Origin: an uncultured Collinsella sp. | Lineage (GTDB): Bacteria > Actinomycetota > Coriobacteriia > Coriobacteriales > Coriobacteriaceae | Assembly (NCBI GenBank): GCA_905197585.1 | Contig: CAJJZO010000011.1 | Coordinates: 1-19,359, forward strand | DNA: 19,359 bases | Direction of reading: 5' to 3' | Part shown: piece after piece, positions 1-19,359 of the stretch | Layout of the letters: each line of letters starts with the position of its first letter | Position numbering within the stretch: position 1 is the stretch's first letter | Program-made: the position numbers and the translations under genes | Notes under the pieces: model-generated | Told to the model about the DNA's origin: nothing | Seen by the model: the letters and a program-made list of their open reading frames with translations, nothing else | The model's database searches: none

Positions 1-463
<463 letters not shown>

Positions 464-1420: not shown

Positions 1421-1440
1421 CGCCCAGAGGGGAGCCCGCA

Positions 1441-2442: not shown

Positions 2443-2443
2443 A

Positions 2444-2514: not shown

Positions 2515-2519
2515 GAGCT

Positions 2520-2862: not shown

Positions 2863-2893
2863 GTGAGACTAGAAGTCTAGCACAAGCCGTCCG

Positions 2894-3517: not shown

Positions 3518-3572
3518 ATTAGGGTCCTTAGTCGCTCATAAAGCGAGCGGTATGACAACACGTACTGGATGT

Positions 3573-3602
3573 ATTATACGCAGCGCGCAAGCAAACTGGC
3601 AT
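3573..3602 (-). promoter_or_regulatory. Promoter of the TPR-like protein gene
   Basis: On the minus strand, a perfect TATAAT lies at 3578-3573, with ATGCCA (four of six matches to TTGACA) 18 bases upstream at 3602-3597. Transcription from about 3566 would give a leader of about 49 bases before the ATG at 3517. Confidence 0.5.
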
Positions 3603-3680
3603 AAAAGCTCATCGAGGCCGAGTGACATCGCTCGCTGCGGTACACTTACCTAAAGTAAACCATGAAGGGAGACATTACCT

Positions 3681-3968: not shown

Positions 3969-3979
3969 GCGCTGCCTGT

Positions 3980-4354: not shown

Positions 4355-4378
4355 CGCACAAGCTGCCATAGCTAGCAA

Positions 4379-4414
4379 AAAGGGATAGGGCCGCGCGGCC
4401 CTATCCCTTTATTT
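4379..4414. terminator. Bidirectional terminator between the VOC gene and the convergent kinase gene
   Basis: Positions 4379-4410 are a perfect 32-base palindrome (AAAGGGATAGGGCCGC and its reverse complement) with A residues before and TTTATTTT after it on plus. It can stop transcripts from both sides: the PTS/VOC pair on plus, and the three-gene signalling operon on minus that ends at 4431. Confidence 0.88.
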
Positions 4415-4430
4415 TATGCCGAGGGGCTTC

Positions 4431-6495: not shown

Positions 6496-6513
6496 GCGTG
6501 CCCCCGTCTGCGA

Positions 6514-7056
6514 TTACTTGTCGTCGTTGAGATTTTGCTTGATGTCGTCCGCGGCATCGGCGGCGTGATTCATAAGGTTGTTGATGCTGCCGGGCACGTC
6601 GCCGTCGCTGTCGATGCGGTAGCGCATGCCAAAGAACAGGCCAATCAGCATCAGCCATATCGTGGCGCCCCAGGCAAACAGGGCGATGATGGGGATCAGG
6701 ATGGGAATGTTGAGGATGATCGCATCGCGGCGCGTGGCGATAAACTTGGTGTCCAGACTCAGGCGGAAGAGCTTTTTGAGGTACTCCCACACGCTGTCCA
6801 TCTTCTTGGAGAAGTCGGTCTTTTCGCTCGACTTTTCGTAGGCGGCCTGCGCGGCGACCATCTCGGCAGAGGGCTCATCGACTGGCGCGGACTCGGTGGC
6901 GGCATGCGCCGATGTGGTCTGGGTCTTGCCCTGCGACTCAAGCCAAATGATGGCATCCAGAACGTTGCCGTCGGTGGCGTCGAGCGCGGCCTTGGCATCG
7001 GTGTAGCTCACGTTGCACTTGGTGCGGATGGTTTCAACTTTTTCGAGGTCGTCCAT
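6514..7056 (-). CDS. UBA-like/DUF4342 domain membrane protein
   Basis: A 180-residue protein. Residues 1-45 form a UBA-like three-helix domain related to the N-terminus of elongation factor Ts (VETIRTKCNVSYTDAKAALDATDGNVLDAIIWLE). A polar linker follows (46-80), then an amphipathic DUF4342-like stretch (DSVWEYLKKLFRLSLDTKF, about 87-105), and a long hydrophobic segment (112-143) that could be one long helix or a membrane hairpin. The C-terminus is polar and acidic. Its biochemical function is unknown. As first gene of the operon with the regulator and kinase, it may be part of the signalling or stress output; this is inference from position. ATG 7056 has a good AAAGGA site about eight bases upstream. 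Confidence 0.85.
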   Translation of the reverse strand: MDDLEKVETIRTKCNVSYTDAKAALDATDGNVLDAIIWLESQGKTQTTSAHAATESAPVDEPSAEMVAAQAAYEKSSEKTDFSKKMDSVWEYLKKLFRLSLDTKFIATRRDAIILNIPILIPIIALFAWGATIWLMLIGLFFGMRYRIDSDGDVPGSINNLMNHAADAADDIKQNLNDDK

Positions 7057-7179
7057 GACCTGTCCTTTCGTTCGATGGGCGCGACGCCGGGCGATCTGCC
7101 CGGGCGCGAGCGTTGCGTTCGGCAGTCTGCGTTGCGCGGCGCCGCCCCGCCCTTGGTCGAACTCTATAGTGCAGGTTAT

Positions 7180-7219
7180 AGATTAAGCGATTCTTGAGCC
7201 AAGATTAATGTTGGATGAG
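7180..7219 (-). promoter_or_regulatory. Candidate regulator-binding direct repeats upstream of the DUF4342 operon
   Basis: AGATTAA occurs at 7180-7186 and 7202-7208, exactly 22 bases apart. GAT recurs at 7181, 7203 and 7214, matching the 11-base periodicity typical of OmpR-family half-sites. It lies just upstream, on the minus strand, of TATAGA-like sequence near 7165. This is pattern-based inference only. Confidence 0.3.
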
Positions 7220-7270
7220 TTTTTGCGCGGCGGTGGGGAAGGAAGAGGTGTCCTTCTGGGTAGCTAGCAG

Positions 7271-7453
7271 CGAGGTCTAATACTTTTCCGAGAAGTGAAC
7301 GAGCTAAAACGGACCCCTGAAGCATCGACACTTTAGAGGTGCCGTTTCCTGCGGTTTCGATGCTGAAATCCTGCGATTTTGCCGCCGAAAAATGTGGATG
7401 TTCCAGGGGTCCAAAAACAGCCGTTCACTTCTCGGGAAAAGTATTAGACCTCG
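7271..7453. mobile_element. MITE-like 183-bp inverted-repeat element
   Basis: The ends are inverted repeats: 7271-7300 pairs with 7423-7453 (31 bases) with a single one-base gap. A second, inner pair (GGACCCCTG at 7311-7319 with CAGGGGTCC at 7404-7412) and a third hairpin (AGCATCGA at 7321-7328 with TCGATGCT at 7357-7364) continue the symmetry, so the whole can fold into one long hairpin. No gene of useful length is inside, and no clear target duplication is seen beside the ends. It fills the main part of the 557-bp gap 7057-7613. The remaining part of the gap shows only possible regulatory sequence. A non-autonomous transposable element is the best reading; a structured RNA is the alternative. 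Confidence 0.6.
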
Positions 7454-7613
7454 ATAGCGGGGGATGGGGTGCCGGTGCAAAACGGCGTCAAGGGTTGGTC
7501 GAGCAGGCGGTTTCTCCATTGATGTCCGCACGACATGTGACGCTTGCCCTGCCGCCCTGCTCTGCCGCGGCGGCATGTACCCAAACAACGGTCCTCTAAG
7601 GAGTTCGATATCG

Positions 7614-7853
7614 ATGAGTGATAACACCAAGCATCTCGCAAAGAAGTGCGTCAAGAACGCGGGGCCGTGCCTCGCGCTGTGCCTTGCCGGCGCAACGGTC
7701 GCGCTGCTGGCTGTTCTGGGGCCGTTTGATGTGCTCCGAAGTGCCAGTTCTCTGCATGTTTGCATGGCTCTTGCCGGCGCCATGATGACCGGCGGCGTGC
7801 TCGATCTGGTTTTTTGGGTGCTTGACCCGTTTGGATGGAAGAACGAAGGGTAA
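7614..7853 (+). CDS. Small two-helix membrane protein, unknown
   Basis: A 79-residue protein with two hydrophobic helices, about residues 16-38 (GPCLALCLAGATVALLAVLG) and 47-70 (LHVCMALAGAMMTGGVLDLVF), joined by a short polar turn. Both ends are short and charged, and four Cys fall in or near the helices. I recognise no family. The start is clear: AAGGAG lies 10-11 bases before the ATG at 7614; upstream in-frame extension would run into the MITE-like element. It precedes the metallophosphoesterase by 85 bases on the same strand. Whether the two are co-transcribed is uncertain. Codon use and the good ribosome-binding site support a real gene. Confidence 0.7.
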   Translation: MSDNTKHLAKKCVKNAGPCLALCLAGATVALLAVLGPFDVLRSASSLHVCMALAGAMMTGGVLDLVFWVLDPFGWKNEG

Positions 7854-7938
7854 GCCCTAAGGGATGGAAGGGCTGGAACGGTTGGCTTAGTGATCGTGCA
7901 GAATGTGGGCTAGCGACTTACAGGGAAGTGGTAATCCG

Positions 7939-8628
7939 ATGACGGTCTATGTAACAGGCGATATTCATGGCGGCGCTGACATGCAAAAGCTCCGCGATTG
8001 GGAGCTTGGGGATAGCCTGGCGAGCGACGACTATCTCATCACCGAGGAATGTGCCTTTATTGCTTGGGTGGTGTCGCGCCCCTACACCGTGCTGTTTGTC
8101 GACGGCAACCACGAGCGTTTCGATCACTGGGCGGAACGCCCCATGGAGTTGTGGCACGGTGGGCTGACGCAGCGCCTGTCGGATACCTCGCCCATACGGC
8201 GCCTGACGCGCGGCGAGGTTTTTGAGCTCGACGGCTCAACGGTCTTTACCATGGGCGGCGCCACGAGCGTGGATAAGGAATACCGCATTCCGTATTCCAG
8301 CTGGTGGCCGCAGGAGCTGCCGGACGAGCGCAACTTTGAGGAGGCGCGGGCAAAGCTCGACAGCGTGGGCTGGACGGTCGACTACGTGATCACTCACACC
8401 TGCTCTACGCGCATGCTTTCGTCCACGCTTTATCCAGCGTCCGGCTGGAATTGCCCCTCCGTTGATCGGCTTACGGCATTTTTCGATGAGCTGGAAGACC
8501 GCTTGGACTACAAGCGCTGGTACTACGGGCATTTTCATCGGGATACCAACCCGGCCGAGCGTCACACCGTGCTCTACGACTGCATCGTTCGCTTGGGCGA
8601 CGAACTCCAGCCCTGGGATGTTGCGTAG
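7939..8628 (+). CDS. Metallophosphoesterase-family protein apparently lacking motif II
   Basis: A 229-residue calcineurin-like phosphoesterase. Conserved metal motifs are GDIHG (Asp8, His10), GNHE (Asn57-His58), His153 in ITHTC, and GHFH (His198, His200). Members of this gut-bacterial subfamily, as I recall them, carry a GDFG motif after DDY-hydrophobic, about 10-12 residues upstream of an EE-x3-WL-x-W stretch. Here DDYLI (31-35) runs directly into TEECAFIAW, so the bridging metal ligand Asp seems absent. The reading frame is otherwise intact, with the usual WHGG, GGATS and SWWPQELP blocks. I chose ATG 7939, where homology begins, over 7903; the ribosome-binding site (AGGGA, about 13 bases away) is weak. 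Activity may be altered or lost. The substrate is unknown. Confidence 0.88.
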   Translation: MTVYVTGDIHGGADMQKLRDWELGDSLASDDYLITEECAFIAWVVSRPYTVLFVDGNHERFDHWAERPMELWHGGLTQRLSDTSPIRRLTRGEVFELDGSTVFTMGGATSVDKEYRIPYSSWWPQELPDERNFEEARAKLDSVGWTVDYVITHTCSTRMLSSTLYPASGWNCPSVDRLTAFFDELEDRLDYKRWYYGHFHRDTNPAERHTVLYDCIVRLGDELQPWDVA

Positions 8629-8643
8629 AGGCGGGGTGGCTGG

Positions 8644-9645
8644 CTACTCGACCGTTACAGTGATGTTCTCGCGGTGCGCGCGGATGACATCCCAGCTAAA
8701 GTGCTCGACCAGCTGCTCGGCAGAGCGCGGTGTGGCGTCCGGCGCGATGCCTGTTTGCCCGGCGAGCCAGCCCAGTAGTGCCTCGGGCGCGCCAAAGCGG
8801 GTGCGGAGCTCGCCCAGGTCCAGGTCGCGGTCGCGCTTGGAAAGGCGGCGGCCATCCGGCGACATGAGCAGCGGAATGTGCGCGTAGTGCGGCGTGGGAA
8901 GTTCCAGCAAATGCTGCAGGTAGATTTGGCGCGGCGTGGAGCCCAGCAGATCGCATCCGCGCACGACCTCGGTGACGCCCATGGCAGCGTCGTCGACCAC
9001 CACGGCTAGCTGGTAGGCAAAAACGCCGTCGCTGCGGCGCACCAAAAAGTCGCCGCATTCGGTGGCGAGTGCTTCGCATTGGGCTCCATACGTGCGGTCC
9101 ACGAATTCGATCACATCGTTTGCGAGGTCGTCGACGGCGGGTACGCGCAGGCGCGTGGCCGGAGCGCGCAGAGCGCTGCGGCGGGCAACCTCCTCGGCAG
9201 AAAGGTCTCGGCAGGCGCCGCGGTAGATGGGCGTGCCGTCGCTCGCGTGCGGCGCGCTCGCGGCGTGGAGTTCGGCACGCGTGCAAAAACAGGGATAGGT
9301 GAGGCCGGCGTCTTGCAGCTGACGCAGGGCGTCCTCGTACAGATCCAGGCGATCGTGCTGGTAGTAGGGGCCTTCGTCCCACTCCAGTCCCAGCCAGGCC
9401 AGGTCGTCAATCAATTGAGTGGCAAGTTCCGGGCGCTTGCAGCGATCGTCCAGGTCCTCGATGCGCAGCACGATGCTGCCGCCTTGGCTGCGGGTCGAAA
9501 GCCATGCGCACAGGCAGCTGAACACGTTGCCCAAGTGCATGCGGCCCGAGGGCGACGGGGCAAAGCGGCCCACGACGGGGGTGGGCGCTGCCGTTGCTGG
9601 TGCGTCCGCGGCGTGTGTTGCTATGTTGCGTGCGTTGATATCCAT
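8644..9645 (-). CDS. gluQ: Glutamyl-Q tRNA(Asp) synthetase
   Basis: A 333-residue truncated glutamyl-tRNA synthetase paralogue. It activates glutamate without tRNA and transfers it to queuosine at the wobble position of tRNA-Asp. It has only the catalytic core: RFAPSPSGRMHLGN (27-40, the HIGH motif as HLGN), the Zn-site residues Cys119, Cys121, Tyr141 and Cys145, and the KMSKS equivalent RRLSKRDRD (266-274). The anticodon-binding domain is absent, as expected for GluQ-RS (about 300 residues). There is a short Ala/Thr-rich N-terminal extension before the core. The open frame extends to 9933, but that part lacks homology; ATG 9645 is where the protein should begin. A TATACT element ends only seven bases before this ATG, which suggests a leaderless message. 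Confidence 0.93.
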   Translation of the reverse strand: MDINARNIATHAADAPATAAPTPVVGRFAPSPSGRMHLGNVFSCLCAWLSTRSQGGSIVLRIEDLDDRCKRPELATQLIDDLAWLGLEWDEGPYYQHDRLDLYEDALRQLQDAGLTYPCFCTRAELHAASAPHASDGTPIYRGACRDLSAEEVARRSALRAPATRLRVPAVDDLANDVIEFVDRTYGAQCEALATECGDFLVRRSDGVFAYQLAVVVDDAAMGVTEVVRGCDLLGSTPRQIYLQHLLELPTPHYAHIPLLMSPDGRRLSKRDRDLDLGELRTRFGAPEALLGWLAGQTGIAPDATPRSAEQLVEHFSWDVIRAHRENITVTVE

Positions 9646-9652
9646 GCGGACG

Positions 9653-9658
9653 AGTATA
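9653..9658 (-). promoter_or_regulatory. -10 element placed for a leaderless gluQ transcript
   Basis: TATACT on the minus strand (9658-9653) is followed by seven bases and then the ATG at 9645. Transcription would begin at or next to the start codon. No good ribosome-binding site is visible upstream of the ATG and the -35 region (near 9676-9681) is poor. Confidence 0.4.
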
Positions 9659-9782
9659 GCGCGGGGCGCGGTGGGAGAGACGCTGCCGTGGCCTGCAAGT
9701 TGCCGAGGCCGCGCGTTGCGCGTGCCGGACCACCGGCTCGACAGCTCGATCGCCGCCCGCCAGCCCAACCCCTCAAACGACA

Positions 9783-9818
9783 GAAACCCCGGCAGCTCTT
9801 CGCAACTGCCGGGGTTTC
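9783..9818. terminator. Terminator-like 13-bp hairpin in a gene-free gap
   Basis: GAAACCCCGGCAG (9783-9795) pairs perfectly with 9806-9818 across a ten-base loop. On minus it is followed by TTTCTGTCGTTT, on plus by TTTCCGCGG, so minus is the more plausible direction. No annotated gene ends here on either strand; it may be a relic, or end a small RNA (see 9828-9893). Confidence 0.45.
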
Positions 9819-9827
9819 CGCGGAAAA

Positions 9828-9893
9828 GGGGGACATGATCCTCGAGCGAACGGCAAAGGGGCAAACCGTTTTCGCTCAACTGCTTTATCCCCC
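9828..9893. repeat. Two-tier inverted repeat, possible structured RNA
   Basis: GGGGGA (9828-9833) pairs with 9888-9893, and inside it GAGCGAACGG (9844-9853) pairs with 9866-9877 with a two-base bulge. It sits next to the terminator-like hairpin 9783-9818 in the 509-bp gap 9646-10154. The rest of that gap holds the gluQ promoter, the repeat at 9993-10034 and the upstream region of the DUF2207 gene. No ORF here is convincing. Confidence 0.35.
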
Positions 9894-9992
9894 TCGCTCG
9901 CCGGCTTAATCGGCTCACGCCGCGCCCACACAAAGCCGCTACACCTGTGACGGAGCTATGAAGTGGTATCTATTGCCGGAGCGGGCTATGCC

Positions 9993-10034
9993 AAGGAGTG
10001 TCCCAGATTGCCGGCAAATAAGGAACGTCCCCAG
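9993..10034. repeat. Intergenic repeat with paired AAGGA-GTCCC words
   Basis: AAGGAGTGTCCCAG (9993-10006) and AAGGAACGTCCCCAG (10020-10034) form a short imperfect direct repeat around GCCGGC. The second word occurs inverted (CTGGGGACGTTCCT) at 12198-12211, so it belongs to a repeat family dispersed in gaps of this genome. Confidence 0.5.
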
Positions 10035-10154
10035 GTGGCGGCCGCGGGCGTGACTTTCGTCCCGTTTGATACTCCGCTGACCTAGATGTTCGTCACATGA
10101 ACCCGCAAACGTGGGACAATGACGCTACTGGTATCACAGACAAAGGATGTGCCT

Positions 10155-12098
10155 ATGAACACCCTCGCCGCCAAAGTCAGCCGGCAGCGCCACCTGTTTG
10201 CGCGATTCGCCTCCGTCTGCGTGCTCGTCACGCTTGCGTTGTTGCTGCTGCCTGTCGCCGCGCACGCCGACGGCTACTCCATGGCCCAGACCTATATCAG
10301 TGCCACGGTCGAGGCCGATGGATCGCTGACCGTTGTCGAGGGACGCCAGCTTGATTTCGACGACGACATCAACGGCGTGTTTTGGGAGATCAATACGGGC
10401 TCCAACCAGCAGGGCGGCACGGCGGGCGTCGACGTGCTGAGTGTCGAGGAAGAGGACACCGCGTTTAACAAAGTCGATAGCGCGAACAAGGGTGACTCTG
10501 GCGTCTACACGGTCGAGCAGACCGGTGACGGCGTAAGGATTAAGGTGTTCAGCCCTCACGAGAGCGGCGACAGCGCAATCTACTACGTGAGCTACACCAT
10601 GACCGGTGCGGTTATGAACTGGGCCGATACCGCCGAGCTCTACTGGAAGTTCGTAGGTGACGGCTGGTCTGCGGATTCCGATGACGTCGAGATGGAAGTG
10701 TGCTTCGCGAATGCCGCTGCCGGGACGGCGGCCGTCAAGGGCGATAACTTCCGCGCATGGGGCCATGGTCCGCTGACGGGCGACGTGTCGCTCGATGAGG
10801 ACGAGCCCATGGTCACCTATACCATTCCCTGCGTGCGCCAGGGCGAATTCGCCGAGGCACGCATCGCCTTCCCTAGCGACTGGGTGCCGCAGCTTGCCGC
10901 TTCGGGCGAAGAGCGCATGTCAACGATCCTGAGCGAAGAGAAGGAATGGGCCGACGAAGCTAACGCCCGCCGCGCTCACGCTCGCATGATTGCCAATGCA
11001 CTTGCCGTGCTAAGTGTTGTCGCGGCGGTGACCTTTACCGGCACAATCGTTATGCTCAAGCTGCGCAAGCGCAAGCCCAAGCCGCTTTTCCAGGACGAAT
11101 ATTTCCGCGATGTGCCTTCGGCCGACCATCCCGCCGTGCTTTCGGCCCTCATGAGCTGGAACGAGGTGCCCGATCGGGCATATATCGCCACGCTCATGAA
11201 GCTCACTGACGACCGTGTGATCAAGCTGGAGCAGGCGACCGTGACCAAGGTCAAGAAGGGTCTGTTGGGGCGTGAAAAAGAAGAGCAGACGTATCGCGTG
11301 ACGGTGAGTGATGCGGGCTGGAAGTCGGCCAAGGGCATTGACCACATGGTGCTCAAGGTCTTCTTTGCCGGTACTAAGCCTGACGAGAACGGCGATCGCT
11401 CGCGCACGTTCGACGAGCTGCAGCACTACGTCAAGCAGCACGCTACACCCGTGGGCGACAAGCTCGAGGACTATCAGAACACCGTTAAGGGCAAGCTGGC
11501 TGATAGCGAGTACGTTGCCTCGGACGGCATTGTTGCAATGGTGTTTTGCCTGGTTCTTGGTATCCTGATTGCCTTTGTTCCCGTGGGATCCATCTTCTTT
11601 ACCGATGGCGCACAGGCGAACATTACCGCCGCGGTTATCTCGGTGCCGATTGTGCTGGTGGGTATCGGCGTGGGCCTTACGTTCCGCCGCTTTACGCCGG
11701 AGGGCGCCGAGGTGGCGGCTCGCTGCAAGGCACTTAAGCATTGGCTCGAGGACTTTACGCGTCTAAAGGAAGCCGTCCCCGGCGATTTGGTGCTGTGGAA
11801 CAAGCTGCTGGTGATGGGCGTTGCCCTGGGCGTTTCGAAAGAAGTGCTGCGACAGCTGGCCGAGGCCGTGCCGCCCGAGGTGCGCGAGGCCGACGGCTTC
11901 TACGACAATTATCCCTGTTACTGGTGGTACTACCATCATTACGGTATCGAGTCTCCGCTCGATTCGTTCGATGACGTGTATCACGAGAGCATCCGTGAGC
12001 TGGCGTCGAGCTCCGACAGCTCGAGCGGCGGCGGAGGCGGCGGCTTCTCTGGCGGCGGAGGCGGCGGCGTCGGCGGAGGCGGCGGCGGAACGTTCTAA
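10155..12098 (+). CDS. DUF2207-family membrane protein with polyglycine tail
   Basis: A 647-residue membrane protein of the DUF2207 type. A signal peptide (about 1-38, ending AHA before DG) leads into an extracytoplasmic beta-rich domain (about 40-275, with EADGSLTVVEGRQLDFDDDINGVFWEI near its start). A membrane helix follows at about 278-303, then a cytoplasmic KRKPKP region and a domain to about 455. Two more helices lie at about 458-483 and 488-508. The last 25 or so residues are Gly/Ser-rich, ending GGGGGGTF, the usual tail of this family. Its role is unknown; it is common in Actinobacteria and Firmicutes. ATG 10155 has AAAGGA six to twelve bases upstream and fits the signal peptide; the longer frame from 10119 would spoil it. 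A strong terminator follows. Confidence 0.9.
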   Translation: MNTLAAKVSRQRHLFARFASVCVLVTLALLLLPVAAHADGYSMAQTYISATVEADGSLTVVEGRQLDFDDDINGVFWEINTGSNQQGGTAGVDVLSVEEEDTAFNKVDSANKGDSGVYTVEQTGDGVRIKVFSPHESGDSAIYYVSYTMTGAVMNWADTAELYWKFVGDGWSADSDDVEMEVCFANAAAGTAAVKGDNFRAWGHGPLTGDVSLDEDEPMVTYTIPCVRQGEFAEARIAFPSDWVPQLAASGEERMSTILSEEKEWADEANARRAHARMIANALAVLSVVAAVTFTGTIVMLKLRKRKPKPLFQDEYFRDVPSADHPAVLSALMSWNEVPDRAYIATLMKLTDDRVIKLEQATVTKVKKGLLGREKEEQTYRVTVSDAGWKSAKGIDHMVLKVFFAGTKPDENGDRSRTFDELQHYVKQHATPVGDKLEDYQNTVKGKLADSEYVASDGIVAMVFCLVLGILIAFVPVGSIFFTDGAQANITAAVISVPIVLVGIGVGLTFRRFTPEGAEVAARCKALKHWLEDFTRLKEAVPGDLVLWNKLLVMGVALGVSKEVLRQLAEAVPPEVREADGFYDNYPCYWWYYHHYGIESPLDSFDDVYHESIRELASSSDSSSGGGGGGFSGGGGGGVGGGGGGTF

Positions 12099-12110
12099 CG
12101 GTCGTAAATC

Positions 12111-12159
12111 ATGGGATGGGCTTTTCTCGACAGCCGTCGGGGAAGCCCATCCCATTTTT
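12111..12159 (+). terminator. Terminator after the DUF2207 gene
   Basis: A 13-bp perfect stem (ATGGGATGGGCTT at 12111-12123 with 12143-12155) carries a 19-base loop and runs into TTTTT (12155-12159). It starts 12 bases after the stop codon. Confidence 0.88.
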
Positions 12160-12179
12160 ATGCGCTACCTACGAAGACT

Positions 12180-12205
12180 GTCCCCAACGACTAGTCACTG
12201 GGGAC
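12180..12205. repeat. Palindromic repeat with GACTAGTC core
   Basis: A 26-base near-palindrome: GTCCCCA and TGGGGAC arms around the perfect core GACTAGTC, with two dinucleotide mismatches. GTTCCTAAAT follows at 12206-12215, shared with the element at 2461-2470. It lies between convergent genes, has no T-run, and belongs to the same dispersed family as 9993-10034. Confidence 0.55.
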
Positions 12206-12236
12206 GTTCCTAAATGACTAGGTATGGCTGCCGGGT

Positions 12237-12878
12237 TTAGGCTGTTAGGTCGAGTTCGTAGAGGAAGCTTTCGCGCGGCATGTCGTGACGGCGTTCTTCG
12301 CGGTTGGCGCGGTGCGTGGCCGTGCGCTTAAAGCCGTGCAGCTCGTAGAACTTCCACGAGCAGTTGGAGTCGGTGTACAGGTACGCCCTCGTCGCTCCAA
12401 GCGAGGACAGGTGCGAGACCGCGGCGTCGAGCAGAACCGTGCCAACGCCCAGGCCATGGACATCGCGATCCACGGCAAGCAGCGTGACCTCGTTGTCGTG
12501 CGGCAACGGGCTGCTCTCGAGCAGGCGGTTGTTGGTTCGGATGGTTGCGCGCACTAACGAGAGATACTCGGCGCAGGCATCAGGCTCCAGCTCACGCATC
12601 TGCGATAGCAGCGCGCGTTCGGTATCCATCCAATGCTCGTTGATAGTGACGCCGGAGTTCTGTCCTGCGCGTGCAAGTGCAATGCCGCGCGCCTCGCCGT
12701 CAATCACCGCAACCTGCGAAAACGTCGATGACGAAAGGCAATAGGCGAGGTCGCACGCGGCCTCAAGGCGGTTGTACTCATCGTTATCCGAATTGTTATG
12801 CCAAAGCTGTTGCAGAATCAGCGCGATGGCGTCGAAGTCTTCGGTATCAAACGGTCGGTAGAGAACCCGCGAGACCAT
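12237..12878 (-). CDS. GNAT-family N-acetyltransferase
   Basis: A 213-residue acetyltransferase of the GNAT fold, which transfers acetyl from acetyl-CoA to an amine. The N-terminus (VLYRPFDTEDFDAIALILQQLW) is the usual first strand and helix. The acetyl-CoA-binding motif A is VTLLAVDRDVHGLGVGTVLLDAAVSHL, with the pyrophosphate loop HGLGVG (141-146), followed by motif B with AYLYTDSNCSWKFYELHGFKRT. The length is slightly longer than the 150-180 residue norm because of a helical insert (about 80-125). ATG 12878 has AGAGG about five to nine bases upstream. It is a single-gene unit convergent with the DUF2207 gene and divergent from purH. The substrate is unknown and cannot be assigned from these motifs. 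Confidence 0.9.
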   Translation of the reverse strand: MVSRVLYRPFDTEDFDAIALILQQLWHNNSDNDEYNRLEAACDLAYCLSSSTFSQVAVIDGEARGIALARAGQNSGVTINEHWMDTERALLSQMRELEPDACAEYLSLVRATIRTNNRLLESSPLPHDNEVTLLAVDRDVHGLGVGTVLLDAAVSHLSSLGATRAYLYTDSNCSWKFYELHGFKRTATHRANREERRHDMPRESFLYELDLTA

Positions 12879-13155
12879 GGTGCCTCTTTCTTTTGCGGAT
12901 GCATATCGAGCACAGTTCTACCACGCCATTGGCATCAAATTATGGTGCCCCTGTGTTCCATGAACTCACCGTGCCCAGCGCCGTGCCCATCCCCTCTGCT
13001 CGCAAACTTTTTCTGCACATGCGCCCGTTGCGGGGTGCATCGATGCGCTCGATGCGCTACATTAAATCAGTATTTTCATTGCCGCTGCGCGAGCGCTGCA
13101 GATCGACGTATCACCGACTCACAGAGCACGGCGGCGTACCAGACAGGAGGACTGC

Positions 13156-14763
13156 ATGGGATCTGATGTGAAGATCGCACGCGCGTTGATCTCGGTTACC
13201 GATAAGACGGGCGTCGTCGATTTCGCACGGACGCTGGTCGATGACTTTGGCGTCGAGATCATCTCTACGGGCGGCACGGCTCGTGCCATCGAGGACGCGG
13301 GCGTTCCCGTAACCCCCATCGAGGAGTTCACGGGCTACCCCGAGATGATGGACGGCCGCGTTAAGACCCTGCACCCCAAGGTTCACGGCGCGCTGCTGGC
13401 CCGCCGCGATTCCGAGCAGCACATGCAGGAGGCCGCTCAGCACGGCATTAAGCTGATCGACCTGGTCGTCGTCAACCTGTACGAGTTCGAGAAGACCGTC
13501 GCCAACCCCGAGGTCACCTTCGCGGACGCCATCGAGCACATCGACATCGGTGGCCCCTCCATGCTGCGCTCTGCCGCCAAGAACGCCACGAGCGTTACCG
13601 TCATTTCCGACCCGGCCGACTATGATGCCGTCCTGGCCGAGATGCACGAGACCGGTGGCTGCACCACGCTTTCCACCCGTCGTCGCCTGCAGGTGAAGGT
13701 CTACCAGACCACCGCCGCCTACGACACGGCTATCTCCCGTTGGCTTGCCGCCCAGGCAAGCGACGTGGCGGACACTTCTGCCAAGCTCGAGATTTCGCTG
13801 GAGAAGGTCGACGACCTGCGCTATGGCGAGAATCCTCAGCAGAAGGCTACGGTCTACCGCTTTGCCGAGGGCTGCGAGAACACCGCGAGCTCGCAGTTCC
13901 CGCTCGTTGGCTCCGAGCAGATCCAGGGCAAGCCGCTCAGCTACAACAACTATCTGGATGCTGATGCCGCTTGGAACCTGGTCCGCGAGTTCGACGAGCC
14001 TGCCTGCGTGATCCTCAAGCATCAGAACCCCTGCGGCTCCGCCGCGGCCGAGGACATCACGGCCGCCTACGACCGCGCGTTTGCCTGCGATCCCAAGAGC
14101 GCCTTTGGCGGCATCATCGCCTGCAACCGCGAGGTTCCCTATGAGCTGGTCGAGCACTTCGCCGATCAGAACAAGCAGTTCGTCGAGGTTATCATCGCCC
14201 CGAGCTACACTGCCGAGGCGCTCGAGCGCATGGCCAAGCGCCCCAACCTGCGCGTGCTGGCTACCGGCGGCGTGGACCACGGCGCCCAGGTGGAGCTGCG
14301 CTCCGTCGACGGCGGCATGCTGGTGCAGGAAGTCGACCACGTGACCGAGGATCCCGCGACCTTCACGTTTCCCACCGACCGCAAGCCCACTGACGCCGAG
14401 ATGGCCGAGCTCGAGTTTGCCTGGAAGGTCTGCAAGGGCGTCAAGTCCAACGCCATCCTGGTCTCCAAGGGCAAGGCCGGCATTGGCATGGGCCCGGGTC
14501 AGCCTAACCGCGTTGACTCTGCGCTGCTTGCCTGCGAGCGCGCCGAGGACTTCTGCGAGCGCGAGGGCGTGGAGAAGGGCGGCTTTGCCTGCGCAAGCGA
14601 CGCGTTCTTCCCGTTCCGCGACAACGTCGACGTGCTTGCCGAGCATGGTGTGACCTGCATCATCCAGCCCGGCGGCTCCAAGCGCGACGACGAGAGCATC
14701 CAGGCCTGCAACGAGCACAATATTGCGATGGTGTTTACGGGCGCTCGCCACTTTAGGCACTAA
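13156..14763 (+). CDS. purH: Bifunctional AICAR formyltransferase/IMP cyclohydrolase
   Basis: A 535-residue enzyme for the last two steps of IMP synthesis: formylation of AICAR with 10-formyl-tetrahydrofolate, then ring closure. The N-terminal MGS-like cyclohydrolase domain (about 1-195) shows [46 protein letters not shown] and [15 protein letters not shown]. The C-terminal transformylase domain shows the catalytic KHQNPCGSA (about 285-294), [38 protein letters not shown] and the ending FTGARHFRH. The length matches the bacterial family. ATG 13156 is preceded by AGGAGG with good spacing. It is monocistronic, with about 275 bases of non-coding DNA upstream in which I see no riboswitch or strong promoter, and a hairpin terminator downstream. 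It is not in a purine operon here. Confidence 0.98.
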
Positions 14764-14792
14764 GTTTCGCCCCGGGACAAAATAATCTCTGC

Positions 14793-14828
14793 AAAAGACG
14801 GTCGCTCCGTTTGGAGGGCCGTCTTTTT
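14793..14828 (+). terminator. Terminator after purH
   Basis: AAAAGACGG pairs with CCGTCTTTT. The stem continues through CTCC/GGAG with one bulged base to a GTTT loop, and ends in five T residues (14824-14828). It lies 29 bases after the purH stop. Confidence 0.85.
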
Positions 14829-14868
14829 GGTATAAGAGGACGGAATGACTAACACGAAAGGTATGACC

Positions 14869-15576
14869 ATGCCCCAGATTGATGATGCCGAGCTGTTTGG
14901 CAATGCCGAGGATCAGCGTGCGTACGAGGACTTTTGCGCCAATCAGGAGGCGGTCGAGAAGTTTACGCTCGACAAGCCCGCGCTTGTCTGCCGTTGGCGC
15001 ATGTCCAACAAAAAGGTGCCCATGCTCAACCGCCACATTCGCGCACTGTCCGAGCGCCTGGTGCAGGGCGAGCCGCTTACCCATAACATGCTCAGCTGGG
15101 CCAAACAGCACGTTGAGTGGTCGCTTGCCGAGGGCGATTACACCGCGCGCGACGGCGTGCTCATGCTGGTGATCGACATCAACGGCAACGCCGCCATGAC
15201 GGTGGGGGAGTACGAGCCGCTAGCCGATACGTCGGCCAAGGCGCTGCGTGCTCGCTCCGCCGAGGCCCGCTCCGAGGCCGACGAGACCGGCGTAGCGCCC
15301 GAGCTGCTCGCCGCCGTCAACAACGGCGAGCTTGCCTTTGTGGCGCCGGCGGACGAGTGCCTGTGTGGCACGGCGACGCTCATTGAGCAGCTGGCCCAGA
15401 CCAAGGGCATCCCGGTCACGCGCGTAGACATTCCCGCGCAGCTTAAGGGCGCGCTGTTCCTAGTGAGCGACGAGCACGGCGTGGTCCCCGCGACCGAGAC
15501 AGACGCCGCCGAGGCCGACGCCGCCACGGTCGCCTTCTTCGCCGACGGCTACGAAAAGCTCCGCGCCCGCCGCTAA
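14869..15576 (+). CDS. Conserved-looking protein of unknown function
   Basis: A soluble, acidic protein of 235 residues from ATG 14869 (243 if ATG 14845 is used). I prefer 14869 because GAAAGG lies seven bases upstream. ATG 14845 has AGAGGA only four bases away and a TATAAG just before it, so a leaderless or alternative start is possible. The N-terminal half is helical, with LVCRWRMSNKKVPMLNRHIRALSERL and SWAKQHVEWSLAEGDYTARDGVLMLVIDINGNA. The C-terminal half, with ELAFVAPADECLCGTATLIEQLAQTKGIPVTRVD, has a weak look of fold type IV aminotransferases but lacks the catalytic motifs I would need. Codon use and good third-position GC support a real gene. It sits alone between the purH terminator and the regulator gene. 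I do not assign a function. Confidence 0.75.
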   Translation: MPQIDDAELFGNAEDQRAYEDFCANQEAVEKFTLDKPALVCRWRMSNKKVPMLNRHIRALSERLVQGEPLTHNMLSWAKQHVEWSLAEGDYTARDGVLMLVIDINGNAAMTVGEYEPLADTSAKALRARSAEARSEADETGVAPELLAAVNNGELAFVAPADECLCGTATLIEQLAQTKGIPVTRVDIPAQLKGALFLVSDEHGVVPATETDAAEADAATVAFFADGYEKLRARR

Positions 15577-15610
15577 ATGATTTTCTGGGACGGGGATTAA
15601 AGAATCATTT
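15575..15610. repeat. Short inverted repeat after the unknown gene
   Basis: AAATGATT (15575-15582) pairs with AATCATTT (15603-15610); GGGGA (15592-15596) and TCCCC (15614-15618) form a second, crossing pair. It overlaps the end of the preceding stop codon and lacks a clean T-run, so it is a weak terminator candidate or another dispersed repeat. Confidence 0.4.
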
Positions 15611-15680
15611 TGGTCCCCGCCACCGCTACGAGTGCGAGGCGGACAAAACGCCCCCGCTCGCGAACAGTTCTGTCACCTTG

Positions 15681-15696
15681 GCACCGCGCGCGGTGC
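15681..15696. promoter_or_regulatory. Perfect 16-bp palindrome upstream of the Bce-like regulator gene
   Basis: GCACCGCG followed by CGCGGTGC is an uninterrupted palindrome 58 bases before the regulator ATG, and CATAAT at 15716-15721 could be the -10. The arrangement would suit an operator; no binding protein can be named from the sequence. Confidence 0.35.
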
Positions 15697-15754
15697 ACAC
15701 CTGCAGTTTCGCAGCCATAATGGTGGCAAGACAACCAAGAGGGGAGCGGAACCC

Positions 15755-16426
15755 ATGCCGCTGATCTATATCGTTGAGGACGACGAGCCCATTCGTCGTG
15801 AGCTTGTCGACATTCTTGCCCGCGCCGGGTTTGAAATCGAGGCCTGCGAATCGTTCGAGCACGTCTCGCGCGATATTCTCGCCGCCGCTCCCGACCTGGT
15901 GCTGCTCGACCTCACACTCCCTGTCAAAGACGGCCAGCACATCTGCCATGAGGTTCGCCGCGAATCCGAGGTTCCCATCATCGTCCTCACGTCGCGCACG
16001 ACCGAGATTGACGAGGTCATGGCCATGACGCTCGGCGCGGACGACTTTGTTCCCAAGCCCTACAGCGCCCGTGTGCTCGTGGCGCGCATCAACGCACTAC
16101 TGCGTCGCACCGCGGCGGCGGGCGAGCGCAGCACGCTCGTCCACAAGGGACTGGAGCTCGACCTCGCACGCTCCATGGTCACCAACACGCAAACGGGCAC
16201 CAGCACCGAGCTCACCAAAAACGAGCTGCGTATCCTCTCGTTGCTTCTGAGCCGCGCGGGCAAGATCGTCTCGCGCTCGGCCATCATGCAGGACCTGTGG
16301 GACTCCGATGCCTTCGTGGACGACAATACGCTCACCGTCAACATCAACCGCCTGCGTACCACGCTCGAAAAAATCGGCATCAAGGGGTATTTGACGACGC
16401 ATCGCGGCCAAGGCTATTCGGTCTAG
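15755..16426 (+). CDS. OmpR-family response regulator, BceR/GraR-like
   Basis: A 223-residue two-domain regulator. The receiver domain has Glu8/Asp9/Asp10, phosphorylation site Asp52 (LVLLDLTLP), the TSR segment (79-81) and Lys101 (ADDFVPKPY). The winged-helix domain (about 128-223) contains LTKNELRILSLLLSRAG and NTLTVNINRLRTTLEKIG, ending RGQGYSV. The phrasing of receiver and effector is like regulators paired with intramembrane-sensing kinases for peptide-antibiotic detoxification (BceR, GraR). ATG 15755 is supported by GAGGGGAG at good spacing; the longer open frame from 15632 adds residues with no receiver homology. It is followed after nine bases by its kinase. No BceAB-type transporter genes are in the window. 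Confidence 0.92.
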   Translation: MPLIYIVEDDEPIRRELVDILARAGFEIEACESFEHVSRDILAAAPDLVLLDLTLPVKDGQHICHEVRRESEVPIIVLTSRTTEIDEVMAMTLGADDFVPKPYSARVLVARINALLRRTAAAGERSTLVHKGLELDLARSMVTNTQTGTSTELTKNELRILSLLLSRAGKIVSRSAIMQDLWDSDAFVDDNTLTVNINRLRTTLEKIGIKGYLTTHRGQGYSV

Positions 16427-16435
16427 GGGCCGGCT

Positions 16436-17479
16436 ATGTCGTTTGGCAAGTTCTTTAAAGATGCGCTGCTTCCCGTCGCCGTGTGGACGTGCGGCGTGCT
16501 GCTGAGCTGCTTTGTGCTGACGGTCGCCGGCGCACCCGTTTCTATCGTGGTCGTGGCGGTCGGTGTGTCCTATATCTTTGGTATGCTCGGCATCGTGGTC
16601 GAGTACGCGCGCCGTCGCCGTTTTCTGCGTCAGCTGGAGCGTGCGGCCGAGGAGCTCGAGAGTCCCGCATGGGTGCAGGAGATGGTGCAATGCCCGACCT
16701 ATGCCGAGGGCGAGCTCGAGTACGAGGTCTTGCGCCGGGTGGGCAAAGCCGCTTGTGACGAGGTTGCCGAAGGCAGGCGCCAGACCGATGACTATCGCGA
16801 CTATATCGAGAGCTGGGTCCACGAGGCCAAGCTGCCCCTGGCGGCGGCCCACCTGATTTTGGAAAACCTGGACGGCAGCGAAGACGACCTGTCGCGCGTG
16901 GATGACCTGGGCCGTGAGCTGGCTCGCGTGGAGCGCTATATCGACCAGGCACTGTACTACGCGCGCTCGGAAGTCGTGGAGCGGGACTACCTGATTCGCC
17001 GCTGGGATCTCAAGACCTTGGTGACGGGCGCGATTAAAGCCAACGCGCGCGAGCTCATCGCGGCGCACGTGGCCCCGGTGTGCGAGAACCTCGACTTTGA
17101 GGTCTTTACCGACGAGAAGTGGCTCGAGTTTATCTTGGGGCAGCTCATCCAGAACAGCATTAAATACGCGTGCGAGGACGGCGCGAAGATCGTGTTTTCG
17201 GGCGCGTTGCTGGACGAGGGTCTGGCGAGTGAGCGCATTGAGCTCACTGTTGCCGATAACGGCTGCGGCGTGAGTGCGGCAGACCTGCCACGCGTGTTCG
17301 AGAAGGGCTTTACCGGCGACAACGGCCGCACCACCAAGCGCGCAACGGGCATCGGCCTCTATCTGGTGGCACGCCTGTGCTCCAAGATGGGCATCGACGT
17401 CACCGCGGCATCCGATTCCGGCGAAGGCTTTGTTGTCACGTTTGCCTTCTCAACCAACAAGTTCCAATACTTTGAGTAG
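16436..17479 (+). CDS. Intramembrane-sensing histidine kinase, BceS/GraS-like
   Basis: A 347-residue kinase with two membrane helices (about 12-32 and 35-57) separated by only a few residues, so no extracytoplasmic sensor domain, the hallmark of intramembrane-sensing kinases. The dimerisation motif YIESWVHEAKLPLAA carries His129, matching the WVHE-I/A-K-x-P pattern of BceS. The ATPase domain shows Asn240 (QNSIKYA), DNGCG (274-278), the family-typical FEKGFTGDNGR (288-298) and TGIGLYLV (304-311). In the known systems the paired ABC transporter senses the peptide and signals to the kinase. Here no transporter is adjacent; the following genes are hipBA. The stop-to-start gap with the regulator is nine bases and the ribosome-binding site is weak, so translation is probably coupled. 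Confidence 0.92.
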   Translation: MSFGKFFKDALLPVAVWTCGVLLSCFVLTVAGAPVSIVVVAVGVSYIFGMLGIVVEYARRRRFLRQLERAAEELESPAWVQEMVQCPTYAEGELEYEVLRRVGKAACDEVAEGRRQTDDYRDYIESWVHEAKLPLAAAHLILENLDGSEDDLSRVDDLGRELARVERYIDQALYYARSEVVERDYLIRRWDLKTLVTGAIKANARELIAAHVAPVCENLDFEVFTDEKWLEFILGQLIQNSIKYACEDGAKIVFSGALLDEGLASERIELTVADNGCGVSAADLPRVFEKGFTGDNGRTTKRATGIGLYLVARLCSKMGIDVTAASDSGEGFVVTFAFSTNKFQYFE

Positions 17480-17542
17480 TCAGCCCGTATAGCGTAGACG
17501 TTCAGGATCTTCCCATTTAAGAAGAAATCAGGCTTTTCGGCA

Positions 17543-17568
17543 GCTATATTCCCGAACGGGAACATTGC
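17543..17568. promoter_or_regulatory. hipBA operator O1
   Basis: A 26-bp inverted repeat with half-sites GCTATATTC and GAACATTGC, sharing the TTCCCG...GAA core with the two sites downstream. It is the first of three sites whose left ends are exactly 39 bases apart. Confidence 0.65.
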
Positions 17569-17581
17569 TAATGTAGTCAAC

Positions 17582-17607
17582 ACTATATTCCCGTACATGA
17601 ACATAGT
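17582..17607. promoter_or_regulatory. hipBA operator O2
   Basis: A 26-bp inverted repeat with half-sites ACTATATTC and GAACATAGT, the most symmetric of the three. It lies just upstream of the -10 candidate TATACT and would cover the -35 region. Confidence 0.7.
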
Positions 17608-17617
17608 GCTACAGTTT

Positions 17618-17623
17618 TATACT
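17618..17623 (+). promoter_or_regulatory. -10 element of hipBA
   Basis: TATACT lies between operators O2 and O3 and overlaps the first three bases of O3. The -35 region is poor (near 17595-17600) and falls inside O2, so a repressor on either site would block polymerase. Confidence 0.45.
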
Positions 17624-17646
17624 ATGTTCACGGGCAGGAATATAGC
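17621..17646. promoter_or_regulatory. hipBA operator O3
   Basis: A 26-bp inverted repeat with half-sites ACTATGTTC and GAATATAGC. It ends one base before the TGGAGG ribosome-binding site region of hipB, so it covers the transcript start and the leader. Confidence 0.68.
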
Positions 17647-17656
17647 TGGAGGCGTT

Positions 17657-17947
17657 ATGAGAACGGTGACAACGATTAAAAAGCTGGATGGGCGCGTCAA
17701 GCTCAAACCGTCGGAAGCCGCTTTCTCGGAGCGCACGGTTTTCGATCCCTCTGAGATAGGGAAGGCCCTTAGGCTCAGAAGGCGTGAGCTCGGCTTGACT
17801 CAACGTGACGTCGCGACTATGACGGGTCGCAGCCTTCGTGTGATTGGTGATATCGAACGGGGGCGGACAACGGTCGAAATTGGTGTCATTTTCGATTACG
17901 CCTCCATCGTGGATATTGATTTTATTCTGAAGGTGAGGGGGAAGTAA
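17657..17947 (+). CDS. hipB: HipB-like antitoxin, helix-turn-helix repressor
   Basis: A 96-residue DNA-binding antitoxin. The XRE-type helix-turn-helix occupies about residues 34-75 (IGKALRLRRRELGLTQRDVATMTGRSLRVIGDIERG), with the conserved LTQ start of the second helix and the ERG end. A C-terminal strand (DIDFILKVRG) is likely for dimerisation. HipB-type antitoxins bind HipA and repress their own operon. Start ATG 17657 has GGAGG four bases upstream; an upstream in-frame ATG at 17597 would lie inside operator O2. Its TAA shares an A with the hipA ATG, so the genes overlap by one base. Operators O1-O3 directly upstream support autoregulation. The base composition is more AT-rich than neighbouring genes. 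Confidence 0.88.
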   Translation: MRTVTTIKKLDGRVKLKPSEAAFSERTVFDPSEIGKALRLRRRELGLTQRDVATMTGRSLRVIGDIERGRTTVEIGVIFDYASIVDIDFILKVRGK

Positions 17948-19239
17948 TGGATGGCACGCTGTTCGTTCACCGTGAGTTTAATGGGTCTTACCAGCTGGTC
18001 GGCATATTGGAGGAAAATGCGGGGTTTCCGATATTCACCTATAGCCCCAAATATCTCGAGAGCGGTGATGCGGCGCCGATTTCGATCTCGCTGCCGTTGA
18101 CGGCCGAGACATTTAGTCCGGATGCAACGGGTTCCTTTTTCTCCGGCATCATTCCGGAGGGGCAGCTCAACAGGGACCTTGAGAAAAGGGCGCGAGCGGA
18201 ACGCGGAGATTACTTCAAGGTACTCGATTTGGTCCGCGATGAACCCGTCGGCGCCCTGGTTCTGACGCGAGAGCCTTCGGGCGACAGCCTCGAAATGGAC
18301 TATGAAGAGATAGGTGCGGAACAGCTAAGCGGGCTGGCATACGCACCGGCGGAGGTTGCTTTTGATTTAGCGCTAGAGAGTCGAATCTCCCTTGCAGGTG
18401 CTCAGGCGAAGATCGGTCTCTACCATACGGGCGATGACCCATGTGGTGGATGGTACCTGCCTCATGGAGCGGCTCCATCCACGCACATTCTCAAGGCGGG
18501 GTCGAAAACGTTCCCGGGCGAGACAGTGTGCGAAGCGATGTGCGTGAGAGCCGCCTCTCTGATGGACCTATCGGCCGAAGAGTGTTTTCTTATCCGAGTT
18601 GAGGATGCCGAGCCAATTATCGCCGTGAAGCGATTTGACCGAGTAACGTCTGATGCCGGACGCTCGGTTGACGGATTGCCAATTCCATACCGTTTGCATC
18701 AGGAAGATGTTTGTCAGGCCAAGGGCGTCTCGCGTGAGCTTAAATATGAGCCGACGGGCGTCAATTACCTGGGGCTTATCGTCGATGCGGTGCGAAGGGC
18801 GTCGACGAATCAAATGGAGGACAGGTTCCTTGTCGGCTATAACCAGCTGTTCGACTATGCCGTAGGTAACTGTGATAACCATCTAAAGAACTGGTCGCTC
18901 GTATGGGACGAAAGTTGGAAGCAGGTGAGGTTGGCGCCGCTCTATGACGTGCTGTGCACAACGGTTTACCCCAGTCTCGTTCGTGAGATGGGCGTCTCGT
19001 TTGGTGGGAGCCGCAAGATTGACGAAGTAACGCGCGGGTCGGTGATGAGCCAAATGATTGGGGCGGGTTTGCCCGGGGGAATTGTCGCCGGAATGATTGC
19101 TGATACCTGCAATGAGGTTCCAGACGCGCTAAGAGACGCCGCGCGCGGTCTCAAAGAAGAGGGTTTTCCCGAAGCGGAGGTAATGTTCGAGAAGATCATT
19201 CCAGAAGTGCAAGCTCGTCTAAGCAGGATCGCCTTATAG
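17947..19239 (+). CDS. hipA: HipA-like serine/threonine kinase toxin
   Basis: A 430-residue HipA-fold kinase (E. coli HipA: 440), complete. E. coli HipA phosphorylates glutamyl-tRNA synthetase and induces dormancy; the target here is not known. The N-terminal subdomain (about 1-110) includes FSGIIPEG and EPVGALVL. The regulatory glycine loop ISLAGAQAKIGL (147-158) has Ser148 where E. coli HipA autophosphorylates. ATP-site Lys183 lies in THILKAG, followed by VKRFDR and HQEDVCQA (251-258). The catalytic loop GNCDNHLKNWSL (307-318) has Asp310 and Asn315, and the metal-binding Asp334 is in LAPLYDVLCT. All key residues are present, so it is probably active. It overlaps hipB by one base. The sequence is less GC-rich than its neighbours, in keeping with horizontal acquisition. 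Confidence 0.94.
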   Translation: MDGTLFVHREFNGSYQLVGILEENAGFPIFTYSPKYLESGDAAPISISLPLTAETFSPDATGSFFSGIIPEGQLNRDLEKRARAERGDYFKVLDLVRDEPVGALVLTREPSGDSLEMDYEEIGAEQLSGLAYAPAEVAFDLALESRISLAGAQAKIGLYHTGDDPCGGWYLPHGAAPSTHILKAGSKTFPGETVCEAMCVRAASLMDLSAEECFLIRVEDAEPIIAVKRFDRVTSDAGRSVDGLPIPYRLHQEDVCQAKGVSRELKYEPTGVNYLGLIVDAVRRASTNQMEDRFLVGYNQLFDYAVGNCDNHLKNWSLVWDESWKQVRLAPLYDVLCTTVYPSLVREMGVSFGGSRKIDEVTRGSVMSQMIGAGLPGGIVAGMIADTCNEVPDALRDAARGLKEEGFPEAEVMFEKIIPEVQARLSRIAL

Positions 19240-19359
19240 TAAAAACGTGCCATCCCAAACAAAACGTGCCCCCCCCAACCGGGCGGCACCCCAATTTTAT
19301 ATAAGACAACAAGCGGAAGTAAAGCAGCGAAGGCCCCCGGGGCCGGGGGGGGTTAAAAA
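19240..19359. other. Non-coding tail at the window end with homopolymer runs
   Basis: After hipA the sequence holds two copies of AAAACGTGCC (near 19242 and 19261), runs of eight C (19268-19275) and seven G near 19347, and a GC palindrome (GGCCCCCGGGGCC-like). No gene or clear terminator is visible. Such homopolymer-rich ends are typical of contig termini, so base accuracy may be low. Confidence 0.5.

Follow-up and report, generated by a model that had tools for sequence, protein, structure and literature searches.

Palindromic operator-like sites before a Collinsella hipBA operon lie on a spacing ladder found at many hipA loci

INTRODUCTION

In front of the hipB gene of an uncultured Collinsella sp., three near-identical palindromes follow one another at an exact period of 39 bp, which raises the question of whether they are the operators of the hipBA operon behind them and, if so, what holds them at this distance. 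They lie in a stretch of 19,359 nucleotides (contig CAJJZO010000011.1 of assembly GCA_905197585.1, positions 1 to 19,359), the whole of which we call the window.

Several Hip systems offer a comparison; the papers cited are represented here by excerpts. In Escherichia coli, HipB is described as binding cooperatively to four operators with a 70-degree bend and with HipA flanking HipB (PMC3920265, PMC3376134), and HipA dimerizes within the HipA/HipB/operator promoter complex (PMC7029023). Measured on the sequence of E. coli K-12, the four TATCC-N8-GGATA operators of hipBA are 28, 39, and 28 bp apart; thus, a 39-bp step is already present between the middle operators of the best-known hipBA. In the HipBST system of Legionella pneumophila, three evenly spaced conserved operators precede hipB, and each is bound by HipB in gel shifts; the gaps between the 18-nt sites are 53 bp, which we sum to 71 bp center to center, and the authors suggest that intermediate occupancy may occur, in contrast to the cooperativity seen in E. 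coli (PMC10653801). Repeats at E. coli-like intervals have been described for Caulobacter crescentus hipBA1 and hipBA2 (PMC7029023). A sequence-only reading of the window had taken the regular 39-bp period to suggest cooperative or looped HipB-HipA assembly of a kind new to it for Coriobacteriia; the spacing itself is not foreign to known systems, as the E. coli middle pair and the evenly spaced Legionella operators show. Evenly spaced Hip operators are therefore known already, and what is added here is a general spacing rule. Neither a spacing ladder nor the hipBA operators of Coriobacteriia were found in titles and abstracts of the open-access literature, a search largely outside subscription papers, and operator spacing is not given in the excerpts of PMC8262856, PMC4803016, PMC9438503, and PMC6581861.

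RESULTS AND DISCUSSION

The hipBA operon and its operator array

The window operon has the gene order of HipBA systems, a small HTH antitoxin gene directly before hipA and overlapping it, and several palindromic sites stand before hipB (Table 1). Its HipA carries an N-terminal Couple_hipA and a C-terminal HipA_C domain in a single chain, whereas the Legionella toxin is split into HipS and HipT; both domains exceed the Pfam cut-offs, and the protein matches E. coli HipA at 6.3e-31. The kinase motifs RISLAGAQ, THILK, CDNHLKN, and PLYD align with RISVAGAQ, THIIK, TDGHAKN, and PFYD of E. coli HipA, and we take them to hold the Ser of the Gly-rich loop, the Lys, the catalytic Asp and Asn, and the metal Asp. 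The window HipB matches TIGR03070, the Y4mF family antitoxin, at 6.6e-13 (48.4 bits, under the curated cut-off of 71.65); because this is a subfamily model, the miss counts against that subfamily and not against HipBA. The operon has in common with E. coli hipBA an HTH repressor-antitoxin before a HipA kinase and several palindromic operator sites, although the HipB tail, counted from the TQ motif, has 50 residues in the window and 63 in E. coli. We predict that it is a HipBA type II toxin-antitoxin operon, in which HipB would bind the operators and neutralize the kinase activity of HipA.

Table 1. Features of the hipBA promoter region and operon in the window
Feature	Position	Strand	Core	Description
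O0, degenerate fourth operator-like site	17504-17529		17510-17523, TTCCCATTTAAGAA	Exactly 39 bp upstream of O1 core
O1, putative operator	17543-17568		17549-17562	26-bp near-palindrome
O2, putative operator	17582-17607		17588-17601	26-bp near-palindrome
TATACT, tentative -10 hexamer	17618-17623	+		Overlaps first three bases of O3
O3, putative operator	17621-17646		17627-17640	Between -10-like hexamer and ribosome-binding site
GGAGG, likely ribosome-binding site of hipB	17648-17652	+		Assigned from sequence; one base after O3
hipB	17657-17947	+		96 aa, HTH antitoxin-repressor; Pfam HTH_31 3.8e-08, HTH_3 9.4e-08
hipA	17947-19239	+		430 aa, kinase toxin; Pfam HipA_C 5.6e-39, Couple_hipA 4.2e-15; start overlaps hipB stop (TAATG)

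A repeat search recovered the array as three copies that begin at 17544, 17583, and 17622 and are separated by 39 and 39 bp, in agreement with the sequence-only reading, which had described three 26-bp sites at an exact 39-bp period; the halves that it gave, RCTATRTTCnCG and GAAYATWGY, leave five bases at the center rather than the six it had counted. The cores are of the TTCCCG or TTCACG type, and the best site pair of the window scores 47, whereas none of 20 block shuffles exceeds 37 (mean 33.6, SD 1.6). As had been claimed, the window sites are not of the E. coli TATCC-N8-GGATA form; moreover, their spacing is uniform at 39 bp, whereas that of E. coli alternates. In its even spacing the array resembles that of Legionella, from which it differs in motif. 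Farther upstream, the degenerate site O0 agrees with the core pattern in 8 of its 12 specified letters (P = 0.007 for a position fixed in advance); in six genomes without hipBA, the core at this offset, +33 from the stop of the histidine kinase, is intact (TTCCCGAACGTGAA).

The -10 element had been placed between O2 and O3. The hexamer indeed begins upstream of O3, but it is not clear of it, and we treat TATACT as a tentative -10 since a sigma-70 consensus scan of 17400 to 17760 gave no promoter above the cut-off. In our own reading of the E. coli hipBA sequence, TATAAT likewise runs into the last operator. Among the 99 clusters of hipA loci described below, TANNNT lies close to where the last site begins in 50, to where the second-last begins in 25, and to where the third-last begins in 20 (a third site is lacking in 12 clusters). 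The placement of the end of O3 one base before the ribosome-binding site was accurate.

The array accompanies hipB in close relatives

A scan of genome contigs for relatives gave 73 loci, and the five closest named ones belong to Collinsella, three of them labeled C. aerofaciens. Site spacings are 39/39 at five loci with 86 to 99% HipA identity (L002 to L006), 38/39 at L007 (53% HipA identity), and 39,39,39,39 in the five-site array of Collinsella sp. AK_207A (L008; 51% HipA identity). The number of sites per array varies from 2 to 5 in these relatives, and TTCMCG-NN-CGKGAA is the core common to them. The upstream regions of homologous hipB genes keep both the motif and the spacing: the array accompanies hipB in seven relatives (51 to 99% HipA identity) at 38 to 39 bp throughout, and homologues without the repeats, which would speak against the sites as operators, were sought among these relatives and not met. 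The three sites are very probably operators of the window hipBA, as judged by sequence, and HipB is their putative ligand.

The 20-bp site of the array, with at most two mismatches allowed, is present in 22 of 43 genomes of the genus, compared with two genomes for the same site read backward. In the five genomes with window-type hipBA (G005, G011, G012, G032, and G034, the same records as L002 to L006), all three matches in each are confined to the array, and both matches in G029 (the record of L008) are likewise in its array. Six hipBA-free genomes have both of their two matches behind the kinase discussed below, and ten further genomes have one to three scattered matches. In a tandem-core pattern search of 65 genomes with three mismatches allowed, the pattern proved too loose, since the backward control was about as frequent; among the matches listed, six new ones at 0 to 1 mismatches were followed. 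In six other genus genomes, TTGTTCACGAACGTGAAGAT or its complement is conserved as a single site away from the locus (L215, L216, L217, L219, L228, and L229); this site is perhaps an SOS-type or other repressor box.

One chromosomal locus occurs in four states

Profile searches identified response regulator and histidine kinase genes upstream of the array. A homologue of this kinase that is 95 to 99% identical occurs in 22 genomes, which we term C. aerofaciens-type, and we typed the stretch that follows window position 17479 and its counterparts in all 22 (G012 by coordinates). Five genomes have window-type hipBA behind the kinase. Four others (G006, G010, G024, and G026) have a different hipBA there, with HipA 37% and HipB 43% identical to those of the window; at the same locus, behind the same kinase, it is preceded by two sites of other sequence, ATTATCCCAAACGGGATAAT and ATTATCCCGTTTGGGATAAT, again 39 bp apart. 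The sites of this second type (L082 to L085, L161 to L163, and L166) read TATCC-N6-GGATA: the half-sites are those of E. coli, and the spacer is shorter by two bases.

In a third state, found in 6 of the 22 genomes, there is no hipBA, and two TTCCCGAACGTGAA-type sites stand 39 bp apart at the offsets of O0 and O1 (L133, L135, L137, L151, L153, and L155; for example, L155:1501-1553); a single mismatch affects one of their twelve cores. HipB searches of these six genomes, one of which (G033) is 72% complete, gave no match at E up to 0.001; in two of the six (G031 and G033), the comparison covers about 250 bases after the kinase. The second site is followed by sequence resembling a ribosome-binding site and a start codon, which makes a remnant of a lost hipBA the likeliest interpretation of the site-only loci. 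Differences among the six genomes are too few, in sites and flanks, to tell constraint from recency. The remaining 7 of the 22 genomes have neither hipBA nor sites behind the kinase. On sequence comparison, the spot behind the histidine kinase is a swap or loss hotspot for hipBA.

Spacings of palindromic sites before hipA genes form a ladder

We surveyed hipA loci with a detector that accepts any repeated palindromic 20-mer pair 18 to 100 bp apart and has no distance preference. It was applied 120 to 720 bp before hipA, with hipA starts estimated from alignments, at 175 of 178 listed loci (three were too short or masked), and an array was called significant if it beat all 20 block shuffles with z >= 4. 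From the class search came its 24 new loci and another 40 of the places it listed, taken mostly in rank order, with near-copies and contig edges skipped. Kept out of the survey were 21 hipA loci from the genus search: L076 to L081 (the contigs of L002 to L006 and L008), L083 to L085 (copies of L082), and L091, L093 to L098, and L100 to L104, the last group being like L001, L090, or L092, or short.

Significant arrays were found at 126 of the 175 loci, leaving 49 without, compared with 2 of 189 control stretches elsewhere in the surveyed loci. Near-copies were merged by shared 9-letter words into 99 clusters (a HipB frame was recognized in 74), of which two had no spacing in the range of 20 to 62 bp, so that 97 medians remained. 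The 212 consecutive distances comprised 3 at 14 bp, 12 over 62 bp, and 197 at 20 to 62 bp; the latter fell at 26 to 29 bp (66), 37 to 40 bp (102), and 48 to 50 bp (19), which places 187 on the ladder and leaves 10 others, with group means of 27.1, 38.8, and 49.4 bp. Cluster medians lie in the bands 26 to 29, 37 to 40, and 48 to 51 bp in 91 of 97 cases, where 27 would be expected if they were uniform over 20 to 62 bp, the bands having been chosen after a first look at the data. At a period of 11 bp, the medians give R = 0.84, a value reached by 0 of 20,000 uniform draws, which treat the clusters as independent, as they are not. The best-fitting period is 11.5 bp for all clusters (R = 0.85) and 11.3 bp outside Coriobacteriia; R falls to 0.80 at 10.5 bp for all clusters, so the plain helical repeat is only an approximate description. 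Within an array, distances agree to within 2 bp in 77 of 82 cases.

The rule is strong in Coriobacteriia, where 50 of 54 cluster medians are 38 to 40 bp, and good but less complete elsewhere, with 39 of 43 medians in a band (27 at 26 to 29 bp, 2 at 37 to 40 bp, and 10 at 48 to 51 bp). The 70 loci added once the ladder had been noticed repeat this pattern in part. Among 47 later-added Coriobacteriia loci, 40 were significant and yielded 33 cluster representatives, 32 of them with medians in a band. Outside Coriobacteriia, 9 of 23 later-added loci were significant and 5 of these 9 had medians in a band (the misses being 42/41, 42-31-42, 73, and 53), which lends the ladder weak support there. Three of these arrays, with spacings of 42/41, 42-31-42, and 73, come from Actinomycetota with short HipA_C frames of 308 to 347 aa (L240, L243, and L246); the 42-31-42 array is mirror-symmetric, and its two distances differ by 11 bp.

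For plasmids, the prediction was written down first and the detector was left unchanged. We took 14 loci from 48 listed rows, leaving out those from Salmonella, E. coli, Klebsiella, Enterobacter, Citrobacter, Yokenella, Proteus, and Aeromonas. Arrays were significant at 10 of the 14 loci, and 9 of these 10 were on the ladder, the exception being at 45 bp. The on-ladder spacings were 26/26; 27 then 54 (twice 27); 28/28/27; 27/27; 50/50; 50/49; 50/50; 27/27/28; and 27/27/26. The corresponding probabilities of 0.00008 (9 of 10) or 0.005 (9 of 14) assume independence and are generous in this respect, as L301 shares 76% and L308 68% identity with the queries and L304 and L313 have like sites. Four sub-threshold loci, which were not counted, show spacings of 50 (L306), 41 (L307, with a short HipA and no annotated hipB), 26/26/26 (L310), and 38/39 (L312, from Treponema).

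Conserved spacing and variable site sequence

The distance between sites is conserved more strictly than their sequence. Even the most similar site in each of the 49 other Coriobacteriia clusters at 37 to 40 bp departs from every window site in 3 to 12 of 20 letters, mostly in 9; for random triples of 20-mers the difference is mostly 12 letters (range, 7 to 16). The commonest half-sites in these clusters and that of the window are TATGC (18 of 50) and TTCCC (10), followed by TTACG, TTACC, TCTGC, and others.

A quick HipA tree of 94 rows was built from about 215 N-terminal residues, with the representatives L060, L089, L240, L243, and L246 dropped; 40 of its 91 inner branches are open. This tree calls for no fewer than 11 changes of spacing class, compared with a mean of 36.5 after shuffling (0 of 200 shuffles as low), and the strongly supported branches alone force far fewer changes. 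Spacing class therefore follows HipA clades, as far as a poorly resolved tree can tell, and the clusters are not independent. Eight of the 11 changes land on a rung if the three changes to off-ladder rows are taken as misses (P = 0.003 under uniformity, a rough value because the bands are post hoc). L231, at 37/37, differs by one turn from L233 and L234, at 27, with 61 to 63% identity over the HipA N terminus, and L024, at 39/39, may be compared with L030, at 49/50, with 45% identity. Two arrays, 28-39-28 in E. coli and 29-40-29 at L256, mix rungs in a mirror pattern. The HipB C terminus, counted from the TQ motif, has 48 to 58 residues in 47 clusters of the 39-bp class and a median of 68 (range, 50 to 116) in 17 clusters of the 27-bp class.

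How the sites may act and what may set their distance

In our judgment, the three sites and the decayed fourth are likely to be autoregulatory operators of hipBA that are held near a fixed helical phase, on the 39-bp rung. One HipB dimer, with or without HipA, would sit on each palindrome. Occupancy of O3 would cover the DNA from the -10-like hexamer through the likely start point as far as the ribosome-binding site, and occupancy of O2 the place of a -35, so that a filled array would block hipBA transcription; upon loss of HipB the array would empty and hipBA expression would be restored. Neighboring sites would keep a nearly constant rotational offset, very roughly 0.5 to 0.8 turn at 10.5 bp per turn, and spacing would for this reason change in steps of roughly one full turn, giving about 27, 39, and 49 to 50 bp. 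On the 39-bp rung, HipB(-HipA) units, or the DNA bends that they make, may stack cooperatively into a superhelical assembly; by analogy with the cooperative binding of E. coli HipB, such assembly on the window array is plausible, although the intermediate occupancy suggested for the evenly spaced Legionella array speaks against it. Phased bends or complexes stacked into a superhelix account better for a similar offset at all three distances than a loop of integer turns or a fixed-reach bridge would, and the fit is approximate, as the observed step is nearer 11 than 10.5 bp.

The distance could instead be set by the reach of a protein contact that joins neighboring operators directly, either through a HipA dimer or between HipB molecules, as has been proposed for E. 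coli. This is a possibility that we hold to be rather doubtful. HipA does dimerize in the E. coli complexes with HipB and operator (excerpts of PMC7029023), and the way in which spacing class follows HipA clades suits a contact of this kind. However, a fixed reach is hard to fit with about 27, 39, and 49 to 50 bp at similar phase, with 28 and 39 bp inside one E. coli array, or with a one-turn switch between relatives at 61 to 63% identity. Conservation of E. coli HipA G22 was considered as support for a shared HipA bridge; G is found at this position in 22 of 29 members of the 27-bp class and 7 of 10 of the 49-bp class but in only 15 of 52 of the 39-bp class, a comparison of one residue in a loop with alignment gaps. 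The E. coli HipA contact cannot, with such poor conservation, simply be carried over to the 39-bp class, which may use another HipA contact or none.

The sequence-only reading had also raised looped assembly, in which HipB-HipA complexes would join the outer operators. Multiple operators and the E. coli precedent for higher-order complexes (excerpts of PMC7029023) are in its favor, yet the literature excerpts examined give no evidence of looping for any Hip system. The spacing itself, about 3.7 turns for 39 bp and about 7.4 turns for the 78 bp from O1 to O3 at 10.5 bp per turn, is not an integer number of turns, and similar off-integer phases recur near 27 and 49 to 50 bp. Moreover, 39 bp is short for a DNA loop. 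We do not favor looping and consider it improbable.

It is very improbable that the sites belong to another regulator, either the upstream two-component system or an SOS-type repressor. This reading draws on the start of the array about 30 bp after the histidine-kinase stop and on the six genomes without window-type hipBA that keep two sites there; against it, the sites differ where the other hipBA follows the same kinase, the kinase occurs without sites in seven genomes, and in G029 the array lies beside hipBA on contig C16 and the kinase homologue (54%) on C19, which indicates that it is hipBA, rather than the kinase, that the sites accompany. Least credible of all is a period that is the functionless by-product of tandem duplication of a 39-bp unit: equal distances arise easily in this way and array length does vary in relatives, but consecutive units in 68 triplets share 74.5% identity in their sites and only 28.5% in their spacers (25.5% when shuffled), so that tandem copying is not the cause of the period, and different site sequences at the same distance and the mirror arrays of E. 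coli and L256 speak against it as well.

Operators near a fixed helical phase on the 39-bp rung thus remain our preferred account of the window array. As a general rule, we incline, with moderate confidence, to the view that HipB site sequence is free and rotational phase fixed, arrays lying on a ladder of 27, 39, and 49 to 50 bp and moving by whole-turn jumps. If so, HipB(-HipA) arrays on DNA would be locked in phase, probably as a superhelix, with a pitch that varies from one HipA clade to another.

The regularity extends beyond the window array, and an observation on one promoter thereby becomes a rule that can be tested across a toxin-antitoxin family linked to persistence. The rule places both E. 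coli distances, 28 and 39 bp, on a common scale, makes cooperation of HipB-HipA promoter complexes directly testable through a series of spacings, and offers an easy means of locating hipBA operators in newly sequenced genomes. The Collinsella locus itself is one spot in the chromosome of a gut commensal at which hipBA types are exchanged or lost and sites stay behind.

Sequence downstream of hipA

The end of the window, 19240 to 19359, contains repeat-like sequence (AACAAAACGTGCC) that also occurs at hipBA-free loci, and this end may be a contig edge. At L003 to L006, hipA is followed by a convergent gene encoding a universal-stress-protein-like product.
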